Origin: Mycobacterium dioxanotrophicus | GTDB taxonomy: Bacteria; Actinomycetota; Actinomycetes; Mycobacteriales; Mycobacteriaceae | Assembly: GCF_002157835.1 (NCBI RefSeq) | Contig: NZ_CP020809.1 | Location: 5,084,001-5,148,000 of the forward strand | Length of the DNA: 64,000 nucleotides | Direction: 5' to 3' | Part shown: one piece after another, positions 27,507-44,468 of the stretch | Position numbering within the stretch: position 1 is the first letter of the stretch | How the letters are laid out: each line of letters starts with the position of its first letter | Program-made: the position numbers and the translations under genes | Notes under the pieces: generated by a model | Told to the model about the DNA's origin: nothing | The model's input: the letters and a program-made list of their open reading frames with translations, nothing else | The model's database searches: none

Positions 27507-28904
27507 ATGACCAACACCCTGCCGTCCAAGAACGGCTCTGCACCCCGTCCCCAGCGGTCCGCCCGGCCGAGCGCCGTGGGCCTGCACAAGCACAAGCGGA
27601 CAGCGACCGACATCGGGTTGGCGTTGATCACCCCGATCGTCGGCCAGGAGTTCCTGGATCGCTACGGATTGCGCGATCCGCTCAATCGCGGCCTGAAATA
27701 CGGTGTGAAGCAAGTATTTTCCACCGCGGGCGCGGCCACCCGGCAGTTCAAGCGGGTCCAGGGCGTGGGTAAGGCCCCCACCAGGCTCAAGCCGAGCGGG
27801 GCCGACTACTTCGACCTGACGCCCGACGACGACCAGAAGATGATCGTCGAGACCGTCAACGAGTTCGCCGAAGAGATCCTGCGGCCCGCGGCCCACGACG
27901 CCGACGAAGCCGCCACCTATCCGGCCGACCTGATCGCCAGGGCAGCTGAGCTGGGCATCACCGCCGTCAACGTTCCCGAGGACTTCGACGGCATCGCCGA
28001 GCACCGCAGCACCGTCACCAATGCGCTGGTCGCCGAGGCACTGGCCTACGGCGACATGGGCCTGGCCCTGCCGATCCTGGCGCCCGGCGGCGTCGCGGCC
28101 GCACTGACCCATTGGGGCAGCGCGGACCAGCAGGCCACCTACCTCAAGGAATTCGCGAGCGAGAATGTGCCGCAAGGGTGTGTGGCGATCGCCGAACCGC
28201 ATGCGCTGTTCGACCCCACCGCGCTCAAGACCACCGCGGTCCGCACTCCCAGCGGCTACCGCCTGTCCGGAGTGAAATCTCTGGTGCCGGCGGCCGCCGA
28301 CGCCGAATTGTTCATCGTCGCAGCACAACTGGGCGGCAAGCCGGCGCTCTTCATCGTCGAGGCGGCATCGGCAGGGCTGACCGTCAAGGCCGATCCCAGC
28401 ATGGGCATCCGCGCGGCCGCGCTCGGTCAGGTCGAACTCGACAATGTGACGGTGCCGCTGAGCGCCCGACTCGGCGAGGACGACGCCACCGACGAGGATT
28501 ACTCGGAGGCGATCGCACTGTCGCGGCTCGGCTGGGCCGCACTCGCGGTCGGCACGTCGCACGCCGTGCTGGATTACGTGATCCCCTACATCAAGGAACG
28601 CCACGCCTTCGGCGAGCCCATCGCCCACCGCCAGTCGGTGGCGTTCATGACCGCCAACATCGCGATCGAACTCGACGGTCTGCGGCTGATCACCTGGCGC
28701 GGTGCGGCTCGTGCCGAACAGGGCCTGCCGTTTGCCCGCGAGGCCGCACTGGCCAAGAAGCTGGGCACCGACAAGGGCATGCAGATCGGTCTGGACGGCG
28801 TCCAGCTGCTCGGCGGCCACGGCTACACCAAGGAACACCCGGTCGAGCGCTGGTACCGCGATCTGCGGGCCATCGGCGTCGCCGAGGGTGTCGTAGTCCT
28901 CTAA
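27507..28904 (+). CDS. fadE24: Acyl-CoA dehydrogenase FadE24
   Basis: 465 residues, longer than a typical FadE because of an N-terminal ~95-residue extension (HKHKRTATDIGLALITPIVGQEFLDRYGLRD) before the dehydrogenase fold. Substrate-binding and FAD regions follow: GCVAIAEPHALFDPTALK, then YIKERHAFGEPIAHRQSVAFM and DGVQLLGGHGYTKEHPVERWYRD. The likely catalytic base is E460 in GVAEG, almost at the C-terminus. In mycobacteria, adjacent FadE pairs often form alpha2-beta2 heterotetramers; FadE24 and FadE23, 26 bp apart, are probable partners. In M. tuberculosis this pair is known to respond to isoniazid. Confidence 0.93.
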   Translation: MTNTLPSKNGSAPRPQRSARPSAVGLHKHKRTATDIGLALITPIVGQEFLDRYGLRDPLNRGLKYGVKQVFSTAGAATRQFKRVQGVGKAPTRLKPSGADYFDLTPDDDQKMIVETVNEFAEEILRPAAHDADEAATYPADLIARAAELGITAVNVPEDFDGIAEHRSTVTNALVAEALAYGDMGLALPILAPGGVAAALTHWGSADQQATYLKEFASENVPQGCVAIAEPHALFDPTALKTTAVRTPSGYRLSGVKSLVPAAADAELFIVAAQLGGKPALFIVEAASAGLTVKADPSMGIRAAALGQVELDNVTVPLSARLGEDDATDEDYSEAIALSRLGWAALAVGTSHAVLDYVIPYIKERHAFGEPIAHRQSVAFMTANIAIELDGLRLITWRGAARAEQGLPFAREAALAKKLGTDKGMQIGLDGVQLLGGHGYTKEHPVERWYRDLRAIGVAEGVVVL

Positions 28905-31296: not shown

Positions 31297-32680
<1,384 letters not shown>

Positions 32681-32700
32681 ACCATACTAAAAAGTATGGT
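32681..32700 (+). promoter_or_regulatory. Operator ACCATACT-AAAA-AGTATGGT
   Basis: A perfect 8-bp inverted repeat around AAAA, 12 bp before ATG 32713. TATGGT in the right arm could be the -10, giving a start point around 32707 and a ~6-nt leader. This form resembles TetR-family operators. No regulator gene is adjacent, so the controlling protein lies elsewhere. Confidence 0.65.
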
Positions 32701-32712
32701 AACTTTTCGGCC

Positions 32713-33879
32713 ATGCCGACACTGCCGAGAGTGGAATCCGTCATCGCCGACGAATTCGTCGCGCGATTGGCTGAGCGCGTCGCCGAGGCAGAGCAGTTGC
32801 GGCGGCTGCCGGATGCCACGGTGGCCGAGCTGACCGAGACGGGTTTCACCGAACTACTGGTGCCGGCCTGCTACGGCGGTCGGGAGGCCGACTTCGCGGC
32901 GATCCTGGACCCGGTCCGCCGGATGGCCCACGGCTGCACGTCGAGCGCGTGGACCATCGGCTTCTACACGCTGCACAACTGGATGCTGGCCCTGTTCGGC
33001 GAGCAGGCCCAGGACGAGGCCTACGCAACCCGACCGTTCCTGGCTCCGGCTCCGTTGGCACCCACGGGCCGCGGACTGCCCACGCCGGGTGGCGTGCGGC
33101 TGTCGGGTCGGTGGTCGTGGGCGACCGGCGTGATGCACGGCAACTGGATCATCGTGGCAGCGCTGTGCGGACCGGACGACGGCCTCTACCCCGCCCTGGC
33201 TCTGCTGCCGATCGGCGACGTCGCCGTCGAGGACGTCTGGCACACCGACGGCATGCGGGCCACCGGATCCAACGATGTGGTGGTCACCGACGCGTTCGTG
33301 CCCGAGCACCGGCTGGTCAAGGTGACCGACATCTATGCCGGCACTGCGCCGGGCGCAGGGCTGCACGGCAGTCCGACCTACCGCTGGCCGATGGTGCCTG
33401 CACTGGCACTGCTGGCGGCGATGCCCGCGCTCGGCAGCGCCGAACGTGTCACCGAGATGTACGCGCAACGGCTCGCCGAGCGGGTGCTGCCATATGAGGG
33501 CGTCGTGCAGAAGGACAAGCCGATCGCCCAGACCCATCTGTCCGGCGCGCAGGTCCGGTTACGCGCCTTGCGCGGGCTGCTCGCAGACACCGTCGGCCAG
33601 ATCGAGGCCATCGTGGCCACGGGAGACCCGGTCGACAAGCCCGTGCGGGCCCAGGCTCGGTTGGCCGCGGCGCACATCGTCGCCGAGTCGCGCGCGGTCA
33701 TCGCCGAGCTGCTCGGCGCCGGTGGCGCCAGCATCCACTTCCTGTCCAGCCCCATGCAACGGTTCAAGCGTGACGTCGACGTGCTGGCCGGGCACGTGGT
33801 GTTCGACTACGACACCAGCCGAGAACTGGCCGGCGCGCTCGCACTGGGTATGAAGGTCCCTCGCACGGCGATGATCTGA
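32713..33879 (+). CDS. Acyl-CoA dehydrogenase-fold flavin-dependent oxygenase (HsaA/HpaC-partner type)
   Basis: 388 residues. The fold is that of acyl-CoA dehydrogenases, but the sequence follows group D two-component flavin monooxygenases such as HsaA. It starts with an N-terminal helix bundle (LRRLPDATVAELTETGFTELLVPACYGG). Then come GCTSSAWTIGFYTLHNWML, LSGRWSWATGVMHGNWIIVAAL and the C-terminal ASIHFLSSPMQRFKRDVDVLAGH, with the His-x-Phe and Arg-Asp pattern seen in that group. No catalytic glutamate of the FadE type is visible. It would hydroxylate a phenol or similar ring using reduced flavin from a separate reductase. ATG 32713 follows a clear operator. Confidence 0.85.
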   Translation: MPTLPRVESVIADEFVARLAERVAEAEQLRRLPDATVAELTETGFTELLVPACYGGREADFAAILDPVRRMAHGCTSSAWTIGFYTLHNWMLALFGEQAQDEAYATRPFLAPAPLAPTGRGLPTPGGVRLSGRWSWATGVMHGNWIIVAALCGPDDGLYPALALLPIGDVAVEDVWHTDGMRATGSNDVVVTDAFVPEHRLVKVTDIYAGTAPGAGLHGSPTYRWPMVPALALLAAMPALGSAERVTEMYAQRLAERVLPYEGVVQKDKPIAQTHLSGAQVRLRALRGLLADTVGQIEAIVATGDPVDKPVRAQARLAAAHIVAESRAVIAELLGAGGASIHFLSSPMQRFKRDVDVLAGHVVFDYDTSRELAGALALGMKVPRTAMI

Positions 33880-36648: not shown

Positions 36649-36842
36649 GCGAGTCCTTTCGTCCTGCACGGCGTCAAGTAACGAGATCGCCTGTGCGCCG
36701 CGCTGATACGGGTTACAGCGTGAAGGAAGTCGCGGGATCAACTTCGGCGAAAGGCGTCCGCGACTTCCTCCGTGGGAGCTGGCTACCCCGCGACGGGGAC
36801 GCTGAAACGCCGCTCCGTGAACCCTTGCGAACCCCTGAAACA

Positions 36843-36860
36843 AAAAGTAAAGTCACTTTT
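36843..36860 (+). promoter_or_regulatory. Candidate operator upstream of the catabolic operon
   Basis: AAAAGT and ACTTTT form a 6-bp inverted repeat with a 6-bp spacer; an inner 11-bp AAAGT-C-ACTTT is also symmetric. It lies 31 bp upstream of ATG 36892, in an AT-rich patch that may hold the promoter. It may be the binding site for the TetR protein encoded in the same operon (41301-41915). Confidence 0.4.
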
Positions 36861-36891
36861 AGTTTTCGTCGTACCTCCCCAGGAGCCCGGT

Positions 36892-37983
36892 ATGGAATCG
36901 TTCGTCCACCTGCGCAAAGGCAAAACCCCCAAGCGCGTACACGCCGACCTCGACGGCCTCAAGGACGACGAACTGGGGCGCGGTGGATTCGTCGGGCGCA
37001 CCGCGAACATGTACCGGCGCAACGACCCCACGGCCTACCGCACCGTGGGTCCGCTGCGCCCCACCGACGTGCTGTCCTCGGAGCTCAAGCCCGCCGATGC
37101 CGGCGATGCCCAGGGCGGTCCGCTGCTGATGTTCTCCAACGCCGACTGTCAGGTGTTGTTGAGTCGGCGCGGCGAGGCGATGCCCTTCTTCGTCCGTTAC
37201 GTCGACGGCGACCTGCTGCTGTTCGTCCACAACGGATCCGGGCTGTTGCAGACGGAGTTCGGCCCGCTGCGCTACCGCGAGGGCGACTGGGTGTACATCC
37301 CGAAAGCGTGCACGTTCCGTCAGGTGCCGGACACCGAAACCACGTGGCTGATGATCCAGGCGACCGACGACTTCCGGGTGCCGCCGGCCGGCACACTGGG
37401 CCGGCACTTCCCGTTCGACCCGGCGCAGGTGACGATCCCGGAACCGGCCCCCATCGACGACGACGGTAGAGATGAATACGAGGTACGTCTCTACCACGAA
37501 GGCGGCCCGACTTCGCTGTTCTACCACCATAATCCCATCGACGTGGAGGGCTGGCGCGGCGACAACTTCCCGTTCACCTTCAACATCGAGGACTACACCG
37601 TCATCACGTCCGAGAGCGTGCACCTGCCGCCGACGGTGCACCTGTTCATGCAGGCCACCGGCGTATACGTGATGAACTTCCTGCCCAAACCCGCCGAGAG
37701 CGTGCCGGGCACCGAGCGCACGCCCTGGTATCACCGCAATGTGGACTACGACGAGATCGCGTTCTTCCACGCCGGCTCGCTCTACGGCATTCCGATGCCA
37801 CCCGGCCTGATTTCCCATGCGCCGCAAGGAGTTCACCACGGCGCACCGGAGAAGGCGCGGGAGCGGGCCCGGCGCAAGTTCGACGAATATGACCGGGTGG
37901 ACTGGTCGGTGATCGCCATCGACACCCGACGCAGGCTCACACCGTCGGCCGAGATCCTCGCCAACGACCTGGGGCAGCACTGA
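36892..37983 (+). CDS. Homogentisate 1,2-dioxygenase-like cupin ring-cleavage enzyme
   Basis: 363 residues, somewhat shorter than canonical homogentisate dioxygenase (~430). Two cupin halves are seen: LLLFVHNGSGLLQTEFGPLRYREGDWVYIPKACTFRQVPD (first) and EIAFFHAGSLYGIPMPPGLISHAPQGVHHGAP (second, His-rich, comparable with the metal region of the family). SLFYHHNPIDVEGWRGD between them is also typical. It would open a hydroquinone-type ring with Fe(II) and O2. ATG 36892 has AGGAG upstream. Gentisate or other hydroquinones are possible alternative substrates, because no tyrosine-pathway genes (hpd, fahA, maiA) are near. Confidence 0.75.
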   Translation: MESFVHLRKGKTPKRVHADLDGLKDDELGRGGFVGRTANMYRRNDPTAYRTVGPLRPTDVLSSELKPADAGDAQGGPLLMFSNADCQVLLSRRGEAMPFFVRYVDGDLLLFVHNGSGLLQTEFGPLRYREGDWVYIPKACTFRQVPDTETTWLMIQATDDFRVPPAGTLGRHFPFDPAQVTIPEPAPIDDDGRDEYEVRLYHEGGPTSLFYHHNPIDVEGWRGDNFPFTFNIEDYTVITSESVHLPPTVHLFMQATGVYVMNFLPKPAESVPGTERTPWYHRNVDYDEIAFFHAGSLYGIPMPPGLISHAPQGVHHGAPEKARERARRKFDEYDRVDWSVIAIDTRRRLTPSAEILANDLGQH

Positions 37984-39173
37984 TGAGCACGGTTGAAGCA
38001 CCCGTGAAGCACGAATACCAGCGCATCCCGTATCTGGTTGCCTACCAGAACAACTCGGCCGTACGTGATGTGTACGGCGGGGTGGCCGAGCTGGTGGTGT
38101 TGGAGAGTTATCTGCTCAAGCCCACGAACAAGCCGTCAGACACCGCACTGGTGTTCATGCACCCGATCGGCGGCGGCGCCTATCTGCCGATGATCAACGC
38201 GCTGGCACGCGCCGGACATCACGTCATCTACTGCAACAGCCGCTTCCGGGGCACCGACTCCGCACTGCTCATGGAGAAGGTCGTCGAAGACCTCGGCGAA
38301 TGCATCAAGGACGCCAAGAACCGGCTGGAGTACTCGAAAGTGGTCCTCGCCGGCTGGAGCGGCGGCGGGTCACTGTCGGTGTTCTACCAGCAGCAGGCCC
38401 AGCACCCGACGGTGACGGCCAGCCCGTCGGGGGACGGCCCCGACCTGACCACGCTCGGCCTGATCCCCGCCGACGGCATCATGCTGCTGGCCGCGCACAT
38501 CAGCAGGCACGGGACCATGACCGAGTGGATGGATGCCTCCATCCTCGACGAGAACGACCCGTCGAAGCGGGACCCCGAGTTGGATCTGTACAACCCGGAC
38601 AACCCGAACCAGCCGCCGTACACCGCCGAGTTCCTCGAGCGCTATCACCAGGCACAGATCGACCGGAATCGACGAATCACCAGGTGGGTCAAAGAAAAGC
38701 TGGCCGAGCTCAAGGCGGCGGGCCGCCCGGATGACGAATTCGCTTTCGTCGTGCACGGCACCATGGCCGATCCGCGCTGGCTCGACCCGACGGTCGATCC
38801 CAACGAACGCACCCCGGGACAGTGCTATCTGGGCGATCCTCAGGTGGTGAACATGAGCCCGGTCGGCCTCGCCCGATTCTGCACGCTGCGCAGCTGGCTG
38901 TCGCAATGGAGCTATGACGATGCCAACGGTGACGCCGTCAAGGCGGGCCCGGACATCGCCGTGCCTACGCTGGTGATCGGCAACCTCGCCGATGACGCCT
39001 GCACGCCCAGCCACACCCGTCGCCTGTACGAGGCGATCGGGCATCCGGACAAGGAGATGCACGAGATTCCCGGCGCCAACCACTACTACTCGGGGCCCGA
39101 TCAGCGCAACAAGCTGCGCCACGCCGTCGGCGTGTGCACCGACTGGCTGCACCGGCACGGGTTCTCGCTATGA
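37983..39173 (+). CDS. Alpha/beta hydrolase
   Basis: 396 residues. The nucleophile is S126 in GWSGGGS; HPIGGGAYLPMI (about 60) supplies the oxyanion region; the acid is probably in GNLADDACTPSHTRR and the histidine is in GANHYYSG. The core is broken by a long insertion (about 190-290) that forms a lid. The start ATG overlaps the dioxygenase stop (TGATG), so the two are translated together. It probably hydrolyses a C-C or ester bond in a downstream product of ring opening, replacing the FAH-type enzyme of the standard route. The product is inferred, not seen. Confidence 0.82.
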   Translation: MSTVEAPVKHEYQRIPYLVAYQNNSAVRDVYGGVAELVVLESYLLKPTNKPSDTALVFMHPIGGGAYLPMINALARAGHHVIYCNSRFRGTDSALLMEKVVEDLGECIKDAKNRLEYSKVVLAGWSGGGSLSVFYQQQAQHPTVTASPSGDGPDLTTLGLIPADGIMLLAAHISRHGTMTEWMDASILDENDPSKRDPELDLYNPDNPNQPPYTAEFLERYHQAQIDRNRRITRWVKEKLAELKAAGRPDDEFAFVVHGTMADPRWLDPTVDPNERTPGQCYLGDPQVVNMSPVGLARFCTLRSWLSQWSYDDANGDAVKAGPDIAVPTLVIGNLADDACTPSHTRRLYEAIGHPDKEMHEIPGANHYYSGPDQRNKLRHAVGVCTDWLHRHGFSL

Positions 39174-40393
39174 ACGCACTTCAGCGAGCAGCCGCGACGG
39201 GGGCGCTGGACGGTATCAGGGTGCTCGAACTCGGGACCTTGATCTCAGGGCCGTTCGCCGGCCGGCTGCTGGGTGACATGGGCGCCGAGGTCGTCAAGGT
39301 CGAGCTGCCCGGCAGCCCGGATCCGCTGCGCACCTGGGGCCAGGCCGAACTCGACGGGCACCACTTCTTCTGGACGGTGCACGCACGTAACAAGAAGGCC
39401 GTCACCCTGGACCTGCGCACCGACCGTGGCCGGGAGCTGTTCCTCGATCTGGTCGACCACTCCGACATCATCGTGGAGAATTTCCGGCCCGGCACGCTGG
39501 AGAAGTGGAACCTGGGCTACGACGTTCTGCGCGAACGCAACAAGGGCATCATCCTGGTGCGGGTGTCCGGGTACGGGCAGACCGGGCCGGACGCCGGTAA
39601 GGCCGGCTACGCCTCGGTCGCCGAGGCGGCCAGCGGACTGCGGCACATGAACGGTTTTCCCGGCGGTCCTCCCCCGCGCCTGGCGCTGTCGCTGGGCGAC
39701 AGCCTCGCCGGGATGTTCGCAGCCCAGGGGGCGCTGGCGGCGCTCTACCGCCGCAGTGTCACCGGCGAAGGTCAGGTGGTGGACACCGCGCTGACCGAAT
39801 CATGTTTGGCCATCCAAGAATCCACCATCCCGGACTACGACACCGGCGGTGTGGTGCGCGGGCCGTCGGGTACGCGGCTCGAAGGCATCGCGCCGTCGAA
39901 CATCTATCAGAGCGCCAACGGCAGCTGGGTGGTGATCGCGGCCAACCAGGACACCGTGTTCCGGAGACTGTGCACAGCGATCGGCCGTCCGGAACTCGCC
40001 ACCGACGACCGGTTCGTCGATCACCTTGCGCGCGGGCGCAATCAAGATGAACTGGACAAGATCATCGCAGAATGGGCAGCCCGGCGTCACCCATCGGAAA
40101 TCATCGCGACCCTGTCGCAAGCCGGCGTGATCTCCGGCCCCATCAACACCGTCGCCGAGGTGGTCGAGGACCCGCAGCTGCAGGCCCGCGGCATGATCGC
40201 CGATCACTGGGACGAGCGGATCGGCCGCAACGTCAAAGGCCCCGGCATCGTGCCGGTGCTGTCCGAATCGCCTGGCCGCATCCGCAACGCCGGGCCGGCG
40301 CAGCCGGGTCAGCACAATGACGAGGTGTACCGCGGCCTGCTGGGCCTCGGCGCCGACGACTTGGAGAAACTGCGCACCGAGGGGGTGCTGTGA
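39170..40393 (+). CDS. CaiB/BaiF family class III CoA transferase
   Basis: 407 residues. Family features: N-terminal LDGIRVLELGTLISGPFAGRLLGDMGAEVVKVELPGSPDPLR, then NKKAVTLDLRTDRGRELFLDLVDHSDIIVENFRPGTLEKW. That segment carries the catalytic aspartate region (DIIVENF-PG). It moves CoA from a donor such as succinyl-CoA to a carboxylic acid. ATG 39170 overlaps the hydrolase stop (ATGA) and its own stop overlaps the next gene (GTGA). It would activate the acid released by the upstream hydrolase so that the lyase and dehydrogenase can act on it. Confidence 0.92.
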   Translation: MNALQRAAATGALDGIRVLELGTLISGPFAGRLLGDMGAEVVKVELPGSPDPLRTWGQAELDGHHFFWTVHARNKKAVTLDLRTDRGRELFLDLVDHSDIIVENFRPGTLEKWNLGYDVLRERNKGIILVRVSGYGQTGPDAGKAGYASVAEAASGLRHMNGFPGGPPPRLALSLGDSLAGMFAAQGALAALYRRSVTGEGQVVDTALTESCLAIQESTIPDYDTGGVVRGPSGTRLEGIAPSNIYQSANGSWVVIAANQDTVFRRLCTAIGRPELATDDRFVDHLARGRNQDELDKIIAEWAARRHPSEIIATLSQAGVISGPINTVAEVVEDPQLQARGMIADHWDERIGRNVKGPGIVPVLSESPGRIRNAGPAQPGQHNDEVYRGLLGLGADDLEKLRTEGVL

Positions 40394-41292
40394 CCATGCC
40401 CACCCATGTCGATATCCGCGAAGTCTGTCTGCGCGACGGTTTGCAGCTCGAGGATCCGATTCCGTTGTCGGCCAAGGTCGCACTGCTGGAAGCCATCGTC
40501 GCCACCGGTGTCAGGGAGATCGAGGCGACGGCGTTCGTGTCGCCGTCCAAGGTGCCGGCCCTGGCCGACGCCCCCGAGTTCGCCGAAGCGTTGGCGGCGT
40601 TTCCGGACGTGGAGTTCTCCGCTCTGGTCGCCAGCCCCAACGGTGCCAAACGCGCCATCGCATCCGGGTTGCGTTCCATCGAGTACGTGGTGTCGGCCTC
40701 CGATGCCCACAGCCAGGCCAACGTCGGCCGCAGCACCGCAGAGGCCACCGCAGCCATCGCCGACGTCACCCGGGTCGCGCACGACAGCGACGCCGCGGTC
40801 GAGGTCATCATCGCCACGGCGTGGGACTGCCCGTTCGACGGGCCGACCGCACCGCAGCGGGTGCTCGACATCGTCACTGCAGCAATCGAACTCGGCGTCG
40901 ATCGGATCGCTGTCGCCGACACCATCGGGACCACCACCCCGCGCCGGGTCACCTCGCTCATCGAGCAGCTCCGCCCGATCGTCGGTGCCCTGCCGCTGGG
41001 GGCGCACTTCCACAACACCCGCGGGGCCGGGCTGGCCAGCGCCTACGCCGCGGTGCAGGCCGGCGTGACCCGCCTCGACGCGTCGGTCGGTGGCCTCGGC
41101 GGCTGCCCGTTCGCTCCCGGCGCCACCGGCAACATCGCCACCGAAGACCTGGTGTATCTGTTGCGGGACAGCGATATCGACGTCGACGTCGACCTGACCG
41201 CCGCGATCGAGGCCGCCAAGGTGGCCCAGCAGCTGGTCGGGCACGACCTCCCCAGTGCGCTGTTGCGCGCGGGTGACCGGATCCTGAACTGA
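40390..41292 (+). CDS. HMG-CoA lyase family protein
   Basis: 300 residues. HMGL-like TIM barrel with the opening IREVCLRDGLQLE, the metal-binding AHFHNTRGAGLASAYAAV (His-x-His), and the signature SVGGLGGCPFAPGATGN with its active-site Cys. These residues match hydroxymethylglutaryl-CoA lyase rather than isopropylmalate synthase. Retro-aldol cleavage of a 3-hydroxy-3-substituted acyl-CoA to acetyl-CoA plus a keto acid is expected. GTG 40390 overlaps the CoA transferase stop; ATG 40396 is an alternative. Leucine breakdown is less likely as no mcc or liu genes are present. Confidence 0.9.
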   Translation: MTMPTHVDIREVCLRDGLQLEDPIPLSAKVALLEAIVATGVREIEATAFVSPSKVPALADAPEFAEALAAFPDVEFSALVASPNGAKRAIASGLRSIEYVVSASDAHSQANVGRSTAEATAAIADVTRVAHDSDAAVEVIIATAWDCPFDGPTAPQRVLDIVTAAIELGVDRIAVADTIGTTTPRRVTSLIEQLRPIVGALPLGAHFHNTRGAGLASAYAAVQAGVTRLDASVGGLGGCPFAPGATGNIATEDLVYLLRDSDIDVDVDLTAAIEAAKVAQQLVGHDLPSALLRAGDRILN

Positions 41293-41300
41293 CAGCACAC

Positions 41301-41915
41301 ATGACGCCGGCCGAATCTCTCACCGCCAAGGGCCGCCAGACTCGGGGAGCCATCGAGCTGGCCGCCCGGAAATTGTTCGCCGAGCGCGGTTTTCACGGCA
41401 CCACGCTGGCCGACATCACCTCGGCGGCGGGCAAATCCTCGGCGGTGTTCTACCGGTACTTCGACGACAAGGAAGACCTGCTGGCGTCGCTGGCCGAATC
41501 GTTCCTGCGCGACATCGTCACCCCGTCGGGCATGAGTGTGCCGTTGCCGGACTCGCCTCAGGACACCGACTACTTCACCACCGTGGTCACCGGGTATTGG
41601 AATCTGTTCAAGCAGAACATCGGCATCATGATCGCGATCGCGCAACTCGCCGCCACGCAGCCAAGATTCGCCGAGGTACAGCATCAGTTCCGGCGTTTCG
41701 GCATGGACATGGTCGCCGAATCGGTGCGGCACGCCGCCTCGCAAGGCCACGCGCAGGGCCTCAATCCCGAGCACATTGCCGCCGCGATAATCCTGCTGTT
41801 CGAGAACTTCACCGCCGTGGTCGTCGGTAACCCGGGATCCGAACTGCAGATCAGCGACGAGGACGCCATCACGACGTTGTCGACGATCTGGAAGAAAACC
41901 CTGTACGGCTTCTGA
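41301..41915 (+). CDS. TetR family regulator inside the catabolic operon
   Basis: 204 residues. The helix-turn-helix is AIELAARKLFAERGFHGTTLADITSAAGKSSAVFYRYFDDKEDLLASLAESF. The C-terminal domain (EHIAAAIILLFENFTAVVVG) resembles TetR proteins that sense acyl-CoAs or phenolic compounds. It sits between the lyase and the dehydrogenase genes, 8 bp after the former, and is probably co-transcribed with the pathway. The palindrome at 36843-36860 is a candidate target. A pathway-specific repressor is the best inference. Confidence 0.88.
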   Translation: MTPAESLTAKGRQTRGAIELAARKLFAERGFHGTTLADITSAAGKSSAVFYRYFDDKEDLLASLAESFLRDIVTPSGMSVPLPDSPQDTDYFTTVVTGYWNLFKQNIGIMIAIAQLAATQPRFAEVQHQFRRFGMDMVAESVRHAASQGHAQGLNPEHIAAAIILLFENFTAVVVGNPGSELQISDEDAITTLSTIWKKTLYGF

Positions 41916-41935: not shown

Positions 41936-43174
41936 GTGGATTTCGCTCTACCAGAACACCTTCCAGGACTGCTGGCCGAGATGGACGCCTTCATCGAGGC
42001 CGAGATCAAACCGCTCGAACAGCAGCACATGCAGTACTTCGACCGGCGCCGCGAATTCGCCCGCACCGATCTGGAGAACGGCGGGGTGCCCGCCCGCGAG
42101 TGGGAGGACCTGCTTGACGAGATGCGCCGCCGCGCGGATGCGGCCGGCTGGCTGCGCTACGGCTTGCCCGGCGAGTTCGGTGGCCGCGACGGCACCAACC
42201 TGGACATGGCCGTCATCCGGGAACACCTGGCGCACAAGGGACTCGGCCTGCACAATGATCTGCAGGACGAGTCGTCGATCGTCGGCAATTTTCCGCAGGT
42301 CATCATGATGAGCCGGTTCGGCACCGAAACCCAGAAGAAAGAATGGGTCGAGGCGATGATCACCGGCAAGCGGTCGATGGCCTTCGGGCTCACCGAACCC
42401 GATCACGGCAGTGACGCCACCTGGCTGGAGACCACTGCGGTCAAAGACGGTGACGGCTGGGTGATCAACGGCGCCAAACGCTGGAACACCGGGGTGCACC
42501 GCGCCACCCACGACCTGATCTTCGCCAGGACGTCGGGCGAACCCGGTCAAGCGGTCGGTATCACCGCGTTTCTGGTGCCCACCGACACACCGGGTTTCAC
42601 CGTGCCGTACTACTGGTGGACCTTCAACATGCCCAGCGATCACGGCGAGGTGGTGCTCAAAGACGTCCGGGTGCCCGACGACGCGGTCCTCGGCGAGGTC
42701 GACCACGGCCTCGAAGTCGGCCAGACCTTCTTGCACGAGAACAGGATTCGCCAGGCAGCCAGCAGCCTCGGCGCCGCCCAGTACTGCATCGACCGCGCCG
42801 CGGCCTACGCCGGCGAGCGCATCGTCTTCGGCAAACCCCTGGCGGTGAACCAGGCCGTGCAGTGGCCGCTGGCCGAACTGCAGACCGAGGCGCAGATGGT
42901 GCGACTGCTGGTCTACTACGCCGCCTGGCATCTGGACCGGGATCACCACATGGAGGTGTCCGACAAAGTGTCGATGGCCAATTACCGTGCGAACCGGCTG
43001 GTGTGCGACGCGGCCGACCGGGCCATGCAGATCCACGGCGGGCTCGGCTACAGCCGACACGAACCGTTCGAACACATCTACCGGCATCACCGCCGCTATC
43101 GGATCACCGAGGGAGCCGAGGAGATCCAGATCCGCCGCGTCGCGCAGCGCATGCTGAAGTTCGGACGAAAGTGA
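41936..43174 (+). CDS. Acyl-CoA dehydrogenase (LvaC/ACAD10-11-like context)
   Basis: 412 residues. FadE features: GLTEPDHGSDATWLETTAV (flavin contact), INGAKRWNTGVHRATHDLIFART, and C-terminal MQIHGGLGYSRHEPFEHIYRHHRRYRITEGAEEIQIRRVAQRML. The likely catalytic base is E392. Start GTG 41936 with GAAGGA upstream. Its stop overlaps the APH-fold kinase gene, which overlaps the small protein. This dehydrogenase-kinase-small protein set is that of the Pseudomonas levulinate genes lvaC, lvaA and lvaB and of mammalian ACAD10/11 fusions. In those systems the dehydrogenase eliminates phosphate from a 4-phosphoacyl-CoA. Confidence 0.88.
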   Translation: MDFALPEHLPGLLAEMDAFIEAEIKPLEQQHMQYFDRRREFARTDLENGGVPAREWEDLLDEMRRRADAAGWLRYGLPGEFGGRDGTNLDMAVIREHLAHKGLGLHNDLQDESSIVGNFPQVIMMSRFGTETQKKEWVEAMITGKRSMAFGLTEPDHGSDATWLETTAVKDGDGWVINGAKRWNTGVHRATHDLIFARTSGEPGQAVGITAFLVPTDTPGFTVPYYWWTFNMPSDHGEVVLKDVRVPDDAVLGEVDHGLEVGQTFLHENRIRQAASSLGAAQYCIDRAAAYAGERIVFGKPLAVNQAVQWPLAELQTEAQMVRLLVYYAAWHLDRDHHMEVSDKVSMANYRANRLVCDAADRAMQIHGGLGYSRHEPFEHIYRHHRRYRITEGAEEIQIRRVAQRMLKFGRK

Positions 43175-44127
43175 TCGACACCGCGGCCCTTGCCGCAGTG
43201 TTGGCACCCGAACTGGGCGCCGTGACCATCGACGGCCTGCGAGAGCTGACGGGCGGCGCCAGTCGGAGCACCTGGGCGTTCGCCGCAGACAGCCGGCCGC
43301 TGATCCTGCGCATCGGACCGCCCGACGACGTGCATGCCGGTATGGAGTTGGAGGCCGCCGCGCTGCGTCGGGCGGCCGCGGCAGGCGCTCCCGTCCCACA
43401 TGTCCTGACGGCTTCCAATTCCGTTGAGCCGCTCGGAAATCCGTACCTCATCTGCGATTTCATCGACGGCGAGACCATCGCCCGCAAAATCGCCCGCGCT
43501 CTGGACGACACGTCCCGCCCGGCACTGCTGGGCCAGTGCGCACACGCGCTCGCACAGATCCACCGCGCCGACGCGCATGGGATCGGCTTGGTGGAATCCG
43601 ACCCGCTCACCGACTGGCGCCGCGAACTCGACCAAATGGGCGACACGACAGCCACATTCGAATGGGCGTTCCGTTGGCTGGAGCGCAATCGGCCGGCGCG
43701 GACACGTCCTGTCCTGGTGCACGGAGATTTCCGCATGGGCAACCTGATCGTGGACTTCAGCTCCGAAACGGCCAGGCTGGCTGCGGTATTGGACTGGGAG
43801 CTCACCCATGTCGGGGAGGCCGCCGACGACTTGGCCTGGTTCTGCATTCGGGCCTGGCGGTTCGGCGCACCGAAGGAACTCGCCGCGGGTGGGCTGGGCA
43901 GCATCGACGACTTCGTGTCGGCCTATCAGGCCGGCGGCGGTGTCCCCGTCGACCGGGACACCCTGCACTGGTGGCTGGTGCTGGCAACCCTGCGTTGGGG
44001 CGTCATCTGCCGCTACCAGTACGAGCGGCACCGGTGCGGCCAGACGCGGTCGGTGGAGTTGGCGGCGATCGGGCGCCGCGTCTGTGAAACCGAGTACGAC
44101 CTGCTGACCCTGTTGGAGCGGACATGA
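43171..44127 (+). CDS. APH-fold phosphotransferase (putative hydroxyacyl-CoA kinase, LvaA/ACAD10-11 kinase-like)
   Basis: 318 residues. The protein-kinase-like fold is intact: N-lobe LTGGASRSTWAF glycine-type loop, PLILRIG with the cofactor-side residue, catalytic H184-G-D-F-R-M-G-N191 (Asp186 and Asn191) and D208-W-E metal motif. It is thus likely active. The homologous group is annotated as phosphotransferase/aminoglycoside phosphotransferase, but aminoglycoside resistance is unlikely because it is locked by overlaps between an acyl-CoA dehydrogenase and a DUF6285-like protein. Phosphorylation of a hydroxyacyl-CoA is the better inference. GTG 43171 overlaps the dehydrogenase stop. Confidence 0.85.
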   Translation: MIDTAALAAVLAPELGAVTIDGLRELTGGASRSTWAFAADSRPLILRIGPPDDVHAGMELEAAALRRAAAAGAPVPHVLTASNSVEPLGNPYLICDFIDGETIARKIARALDDTSRPALLGQCAHALAQIHRADAHGIGLVESDPLTDWRRELDQMGDTTATFEWAFRWLERNRPARTRPVLVHGDFRMGNLIVDFSSETARLAAVLDWELTHVGEAADDLAWFCIRAWRFGAPKELAAGGLGSIDDFVSAYQAGGGVPVDRDTLHWWLVLATLRWGVICRYQYERHRCGQTRSVELAAIGRRVCETEYDLLTLLERT

Positions 44128-44468
44128 CCGGCCTGCACTACAAACCGACCGCGGCCGAACTGGTGGCTGCCGTCGCGGAGTTCCTGGAGACCGAGGTGCG
44201 CGACGGCACCGGCCCTGATGATCGGGCGGCAGCTCTGCGGTTCCACGCCCGCGTCGCCGCCAACGTCCTGCGCACGGTGGAACGGGAATTGCTCGACGAC
44301 ACCGCCGATGAGCCATTGCGGGTCATGCGGACGCTGGGCTACGACGACGAAGCGGAGCTGGCTGCCGCGATCCGCGCAGGCGACTGTGGCGACGAGGTCG
44401 TGCCCGCCCTGCATGCTCTGGTCCGGCACCGGCTACGCGTAGCGCACCCGGGATACGAACAGCAGTGA
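44124..44468 (+). CDS. Small DUF6285-like protein (putative kinase partner, LvaB-like)
   Basis: 114 residues, mostly helical: PTAAELVAAVAEFLETEVRDGT, then DDRAAALRFHARVAANVLRTVERELL and DEVVPALHALVRHRLRVAHPGYE. The combination of an N-terminal PTA-ELL-AVxEFLE pattern and FHARVAANVLxxVERE fits DUF6285. Members sit beside APH-fold kinases and acyl-CoA dehydrogenases. LvaB, required together with LvaA for 4-hydroxyvaleryl-CoA phosphorylation, occupies the same place. ATG overlaps the kinase stop (ATGA). It is the last gene of the operon. Likely a subunit stabilising or activating the kinase; this is inferred. Confidence 0.75.
   Translation: MTGLHYKPTAAELVAAVAEFLETEVRDGTGPDDRAAALRFHARVAANVLRTVERELLDDTADEPLRVMRTLGYDDEAELAAAIRAGDCGDEVVPALHALVRHRLRVAHPGYEQQ

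Follow-up and report, generated by a model that had tools for sequence, protein, structure and literature searches.

The closest described systems to the locus analysed here are the lva operon of Pseudomonas putida and the mammalian proteins ACAD10 and ACAD11, in both of which an APH-fold kinase is associated with an acyl-coenzyme A (acyl-CoA) dehydrogenase. In the lva operon, LvaB has been described as a 12 kDa protein binding the kinase LvaA (PMC6692424, citing Rand et al. 2017). For mouse ACAD11, the phosphate was modelled as being held by R626, H634 and R637, with D753 as the base; the dehydrogenase step suffered most from nonconservative changes of these three phosphate-holding residues, and a variant mutated at the catalytic aspartate served as a form inactive in that step. 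Moreover, H597 was described as proximal to the flavin adenine dinucleotide (FAD), which was suggested to accept a hydride and hand it back in the course of the elimination, and two arginines of the kinase were modelled as binding CoA (all according to PMC12440821). In the present work, a stretch of 64,000 nucleotides of Mycobacterium dioxanotrophicus (contig NZ_CP020809.1, positions 5,084,001 to 5,148,000), referred to as a whole as the window, was analysed with regard to three adjoining genes:

41936..43174, + strand: acyl-CoA dehydrogenase (ACADw), 412 aa, with the acyl-CoA dehydrogenase Pfam domains, in a subfamily of its own and carrying H236, F265, R272, Q273, S276 and E392.
43171..44127, + strand: APH-fold kinase of a DUF6285-associated clade, GTG start, 318 aa, with HGDFRMGN at 184-191 and DWE at 208-210.
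44124..44468, + strand: DUF6285 protein, the partner of the kinase, 114 aa, 12.5 kDa, fused to the kinase in other Actinomycetota.

All three are genuine genes with exact coordinates, and they form a conserved unit whose arrangement goes beyond chance. The reading preferred for them, with a probability of about 0.5, is that of a kinase/dehydrogenase unit of the DUF6285 type, a variant that would be sister to the LvaA-LvaC/ACAD10-ACAD11 system and act on something else. The frames of the dehydrogenase, the kinase and the small protein overlap, the junctions being GTGA and then ATGA, and Pfam placed the kinase in the APH family (PF01636; 127.9 bits, cut-off 23.2) and the small protein in DUF6285 (PF19802; 63.1 bits, curated cut-off 28.1), a family labelled by Pfam as a domain of unknown function. 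The overlapping junctions, the intact kinase motifs HGD(x)4N and DWE and the DUF6285-like character of the small protein had all been put forward in an original prediction made from the sequence alone, and they were confirmed together with the frames and coordinates. To assess the conservation among close relatives, a search based on DUF6285 yielded 272 relatives, of which 80 named loci were kept, 78 of them being titled Mycobacterium, Mycolicibacterium or Mycobacteriaceae. All 80 of these loci, which were found by DUF6285, maintained the order dehydrogenase-kinase-DUF6285 on a single strand, with only part of the dehydrogenase present in L105 and in L103, which lies at a contig end. The kinase and DUF6285 genes were separated by no more than 150 bases in 78 loci, and L057 and L077 had about 1 kb between them. 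Relative to the window proteins, the median identity was 87% (dehydrogenase), 69% (kinase) and 59% (DUF6285).

The active site of ACADw was compared with that of mouse ACAD11 by aligning both through LvaC-type proteins, the numbering of the ACAD11 PDB chain being one lower than that of the paper. R626, H634, R637 and D753 of ACAD11 corresponded to F265, Q273, S276 and E392 in ACADw, respectively. In particular, the catalytic position was Asp in 17 out of 17 LvaC-type rows and Glu in all the readable ACADw sequences, and the HCMR motif, which holds the phosphate contacts H634 and R637, was missing, with Q273 and S276 invariant across the readable ACADw; Arg272 was also invariant in ACADw. H236, the counterpart of mouse H597, was His in all six ACADw and all 17 LvaC rows compared and in none of 23 conventional dehydrogenases, 15 of which had Thr, while position 273, Gln in ACADw, was occupied by I, V, L or M in 22 of the 23. 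Furthermore, the Glu found at the usual base position of ACADw was also present in 14 of these 23 other dehydrogenases. As judged from the aligned residues, the active site of ACADw represents a third pattern, neither that of LvaC nor the conventional one. The retention of E392 at the base position had been taken as support for an LvaC-type enzyme; the Glu is indeed there, but its conservation argues against membership of the LvaC/ACAD10/11 group, because the base in that group is an aspartate. One further ACADw frame (G432:C12:71453-72688) showed a single internal TGA within an otherwise intact match.

In the trees, ACADw and LvaC appeared as two separate clades, each with support of 100/100, and ACADw fell outside the LvaC clade. 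Both were joined apart from the conventional dehydrogenases with 91/89 in a tree of 46 rows, where dehydrogenase frames of the same genome longer than 420 aa were left out (L015, L020 and L029), and with 100/98 in a tree of 62 rows, where the long-branch rows L019, L025, L027 and L031 were left out and seven ACADw rows were thinned. A sister position of ACADw to the LvaC/ACAD10/11 dehydrogenases is supported by these trees but not settled, the value of 91/89 not being decisive. Regarding the kinases, those associated with DUF6285 (22 rows) were separated from the LvaA-type kinases and ACAD11 (12 rows) with 100/100, the rows of the latter being sampled LvaA-type kinases, with P. putida LvaA not among them. 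Both CoA-binding arginines of ACAD11, one beside the alpha-C Glu (R86 in the paper, R84 by count of the printed chain) and the other being R176, were kept in 12 out of 12 LvaA-type rows, whereas they were absent in 20 out of 20 rows of DUF6285-type kinases, including that of the window. In a second kinase set, an Arg beside the alpha-C Glu was found in 5 of 19 DUF6285 kinases and the RQ motif of R176 in none of the 19, so that R176 is the only one of the two arginines that is uniformly lost among them.

DUF6285 was found to be closely associated with these kinases across the phylum. PF19802 matches were used to fetch 20 regions, of which one belonged to the window's genus. In 18 of these regions, DUF6285 was adjacent or fused to an APH kinase belonging to the window's clade, and the two exceptions were a region at a contig end (L160) and another with only a weak DUF6285 match (L169). 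In L163, kinase and DUF6285 constitute one protein of 468 residues, and a search with this fused protein gave 5320 relatives, with both Pfam domains present in all of the 120 listed. The conserved columns of DUF6285 were PTA-EL, N42, R49-E50 and P109-x-Y111 (numbering of L157), and the only named organisms among the best 120 of 2464 matches to a DUF6285 profile were Ilumatobacteraceae and Acidimicrobiales. Moreover, divergent DUF6285 proteins beside a kinase in L188-L191 (genomes G378, G341, G437 and G480) were missed by the PF19802 genome search and detected by purpose-built profiles. Against solved structures, the best E-values for DUF6285 were 3.3e-6 and 4.3e-6 (chains F4132-2 and T32-15-1; residues 6-53, no stretch passing alone), matches that allowed no interpretation, and no paper naming DUF6285 was found in the literature search. 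On the strength of these neighbourhoods and fusions, DUF6285 is assigned as partner to a distinct clade of APH-fold kinases, either adjacent or fused. In addition, DUF7064/DUF7065 genes adjoin the kinase-DUF6285 pair in L156, L158 and L163 and are a possible second partner family, and in L152-L155, L157 and L161, from distant Actinomycetota, the pair has an M23 peptidase gene as its neighbour and no dehydrogenase.

The co-occurrence of DUF6285 and ACADw was then considered at increasing taxonomic distances. In the window's genus, 181 of 198 genomes had both, and six had ACADw without a PF19802 match, four of which were examined and carried a divergent DUF6285, the kinase and ACADw together in reversed order. 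In the order sample (298 genomes), DUF6285 was present in 62 of 63 genomes with ACADw vs. 6 of 235 without it, and in the phylum sample (296 genomes) in 13 of 13 vs. 13 of 283, the P-values of these co-occurrences ignoring the relatedness of the genomes. Outside the core clade, the neighbourhoods of 27 ACADw loci were fetched, plus L166 and L168, seven further order-sample genomes with ACADw outside the genus being left out. A DUF6285 kinase appeared within 3 kb in 15 of the 27, in the fused form in 13 of those 15. Furthermore, the gene order varied, being DUF6285-kinase-ACAD in four genomes and in L225 and ACAD-DUF6285-kinase in L166, while elsewhere the ACAD gene adjoined a fused kinase-DUF6285 gene or was divergent from it. 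The linkage of the trio persists across these gene orders and does not need the other five genes of the mycobacterial cluster described below. The APH kinase near ACADw in L212, L223 and L226 is of a third kind, with LRQ at alpha-C and without the R176 RQ motif, and no DUF6285 lies nearby. Finally, kinase genes of the window's clade were found next to dehydrogenases with the LvaC signature, overlapping them in L162 and L169, adjoining one in L122 and lying about 1.2 kb from a divergent one in L170. The presence of this kinase clade also beside the phosphate-eliminating type of dehydrogenase is the best hint that hydroxyacyl-CoA phosphorylation may be carried out by this clade too.

If the trio is a sister variant of the Lva and ACAD10/11 systems, the kinase, with DUF6285 holding or completing it, would move a phosphate from adenosine triphosphate (ATP) to the hydroxyl of an acyl-CoA or similar metabolite, and ACADw would then process the phosphorylated product, probably forming an enoyl-CoA by elimination of the phosphorylated hydroxyl. 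In such an elimination, the active site of ACADw would comprise the FAD-proximal His and the Glu base, with Arg272/Gln273 and Ser276 replacing the His and Arg of ACAD10/11. The substrate might be other than a plain 4-hydroxyacyl-CoA, and in mycobacteria it might arise in a catabolic route involving a dioxygenase-like protein, a hydrolase, a CoA-transferase and an enzyme resembling 3-hydroxy-3-methylglutaryl-CoA (HMG-CoA) lyase. Phosphorylation followed by elimination is, from the sequences, plausible but unproven. It can be proposed, tentatively, that most mycobacterial species harbour a second route of hydroxyl removal beside that of Lva/ACAD10/11, with a DUF6285-completed kinase and a His236/Arg272/Gln273/Glu392 dehydrogenase acting at another hydroxyl position or at a branched or tertiary carbon.

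Several observations weigh against reading the trio as such a sister unit. The four residues diagnostic of ACAD11 are replaced in the window protein, and all of them were lost in 84 out of 84 readable ACADw rows, a count for which 78 of the 80 named loci passed the dehydrogenase coverage cut and one of 85 rows was blank at the counted columns, as well as in 27 out of 27 further proteins. The window kinase is without the two CoA-binding arginines, and the best tree did not join as sisters the kinases that accompany the two ACADw groups, a single clade not being rejected (p 0.133). With respect to linkage, nine of the 27 ACADw loci outside the core clade lacked a kinase up to about 7 kb away, two of these nine being on contigs shorter than 9 kb and all nine genomes having DUF6285 elsewhere, and three others had an APH kinase of another kind. 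Conversely, no dehydrogenase match was found in the fetched stretch of 11 of 17 kinase-DUF6285 regions, six of these 11 having the M23 peptidase gene as neighbour and others DUF7064/DUF7065. As to the kinases beside LvaC-signature dehydrogenases, some 5 kb separated DUF6285 from the kinase in L122, and DUF6285 gave only a weak match in L169.

The absence of a dehydrogenase from those 11 regions also speaks for another explanation, which is possible although well short of an even chance, namely that ACADw is an ordinary oxidising dehydrogenase and that the kinase and DUF6285 phosphorylate a different intermediate of the same route, for instance upstream of the HMG-CoA-lyase-like step. Consistent with this, ACADw has Glu at the usual base position and lacks the residues equivalent to R626, H634 and R637, and the mycobacterial cluster contains several other catabolic enzymes. 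However, ACADw and the kinase-DUF6285 pair remain linked in places where the rest of the cluster, its other five genes, was not found nearby, the nearest relative of ACADw is LvaC, and Gln273 and His236 set it apart from the conventional dehydrogenases. It is very unlikely that the pair would be a regulatory or housekeeping one, unrelated to acyl-CoA chemistry and merely co-transcribed with ACADw; the several distant genomes in which it stands beside an M23 peptidase or a DUF7064/DUF7065 gene with no dehydrogenase are in its favour, but the strong co-occurrence with ACADw and the repeated physical linkage in differing gene orders oppose it.

The original prediction had proposed a module working in the same way as Lva and ACAD10/11, in which the kinase, with DUF6285 in the role of LvaB, would produce a 4-phosphoacyl-CoA and the dehydrogenase would eliminate the phosphate by the LvaC mechanism. 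The kinds of genes are the same as in the lva operon, the partner having 12.5 kDa vs. the 12 kDa of LvaB, and kinases of the clade stand beside LvaC-signature dehydrogenases in other genomes. This canonical module was nevertheless rejected on the residues and the trees and is considered unlikely: R626, H634, R637 and D753 are replaced in every readable row, the kinase falls outside the LvaA/ACAD11 clade with 100/100, and four LvaC-signature dehydrogenases are already encoded in the genome, with LvaA-type kinases near three of them. What stood of the proposal was the identity of DUF6285, the coupling of the trio and the relation of the dehydrogenase to LvaC/ACAD10/11, seen in the trees and in His236; the identical mode of action did not stand, since the phosphate contacts and the catalytic Asp are absent in every readable ACADw and the kinase lies outside the LvaA/ACAD11 clade and lacks the CoA-binding arginines. 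On the other hand, its claim that the kinase is not an antibiotic-resistance enzyme was upheld. An aminoglycoside phosphotransferase conferring drug resistance would have the same APH fold and catalytic motifs, the second-best solved relative of the kinase (9o56) was labelled 'Aminoglycoside phosphotransferase' by its depositors, and there was a weak match to a macrolide kinase (E 0.0071). However, the scores of the three curated resistance models listed were far below their cut-offs (APH(3'), 38 of 205 bits; capreomycin phosphotransferase, 25.9 of 390; APH(4)-Ia, 19.7 of 725), ACAD11 was among the best solved relatives, the best of which, 3dxp, is labelled as a putative acyl-CoA dehydrogenase, and the gene belongs to a conserved cluster of catabolic genes. 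Resistance was rejected on these model scores and is regarded as highly improbable.

The trio is the tail of eight co-directional genes with intergenic gaps from -4 to +20 bases, the first five of which are:

36772..37983, + strand: distant homogentisate-1,2-dioxygenase-like protein, cluster gene 1 (predicted start codon).
37983..39173, + strand: alpha/beta-hydrolase (Pfam).
39170..40393, + strand: family III (CaiB-type) CoA-transferase (Pfam and curated models).
40390..41292, + strand: HMG-CoA-lyase-like enzyme (NF004283, 283 bits, cut-off 246).
41301..41915, + strand: TetR-family regulator, cluster gene 5 (Pfam).

The whole ordered cluster was found in 72 of the 80 named loci, and contig ends cut six of the remaining eight. 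The dioxygenase-like protein, conserved in the mycobacterial cluster, scored 54 bits vs. the cut-off of 510.75 for true HgmA, and no useful match of the hydrolase to solved structures was obtained. Enzyme families such as those encoded upstream point to the breakdown of ring or branched compounds ending in an HMG-CoA-lyase-type cleavage. The literature search found no paper for the gene set of the cluster, and for the substrate only the two ACAD10/11 papers were relevant, as judged from titles and the beginnings of abstracts. Among the variants, L119 was without the hydrolase and any clear dioxygenase-like gene and instead had two additional dehydrogenase genes upstream, and the last five cluster genes were present in a contig titled Bifidobacterium breve (L116, CALQLM010000149.1), probably a mis-binned metagenome contig. 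Upstream of the cluster, the window also contains two more genes of the acyl-CoA dehydrogenase family (27507-28901 and 32623-33876).

The dehydrogenases with the full LvaC/ACAD10/11 signature in the window's own genome are the following:

L003, at G000:C1:7420211: LvaC-signature dehydrogenase.
L008, at G000:C1:7404507: LvaC-signature dehydrogenase.
L009, at G000:C1:1083153: LvaC-signature dehydrogenase, with Ala replacing the Cys of HCMR.
L011, at G000:C1:2202989: LvaC-signature dehydrogenase, with the same replacement.

They are 29-33% identical to the window protein, and the LvaA-type kinases close to three of them are L037, L036 and L033. Because of these four full-signature dehydrogenases and their kinases, the canonical 4-hydroxy acid route is probably also present elsewhere in this genome. 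In plasmids, searched with DUF6285 and LvaC-type queries and through ten regions, eight of them annotated, no Pseudomonas lva operon was found among the records listed, and six regions (L121 and L174-L178) had an LvaA-type kinase near an LvaC-type dehydrogenase, with a DUF6285 match in none of these six.

These results suggest a sister system to the newly recognised pathway of 4-hydroxy acids, one that differs in its active-site residues and has two marker genes occurring together in most of the sampled genomes of the genus, and DUF6285 gains a concrete role to be tested, that of a kinase partner or domain. They are also a warning for annotation, as finding an 'aminoglycoside phosphotransferase' next to an acyl-CoA dehydrogenase does not suffice to call an Lva module and the R/HCMR/D residues need to be checked. 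Compared with the lva operon of P. putida, the locus likewise combines in one operon a kinase, a partner of about 12 kDa and an acyl-CoA dehydrogenase, LvaC-type dehydrogenases being the nearest relatives of ACADw in the trees made here, and its DUF6285 protein resembles LvaB by size and by its partnership with a kinase. In contrast, the LvaC residues are missing from its dehydrogenase, its kinase lies outside the clade of the sampled LvaA-type kinases, and its eight cluster genes include no short-chain reductase or acyl-CoA synthetase. Regarding mammalian ACAD10 and ACAD11, fused kinase-dehydrogenases of 4-hydroxy acid catabolism, the locus shares the pairing of an APH-fold kinase with a divergent dehydrogenase in which H597 is kept as H236, while the four diagnostic residues are changed, the CoA-binding arginines of the kinase are absent, and the fusion partner among the relatives of the window kinase is DUF6285 instead of the dehydrogenase. 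Within the same genome, L003, L008, L009 and L011 differ from ACADw in having the full R / H-x-M-R / D signature and kinases of the LvaA type.

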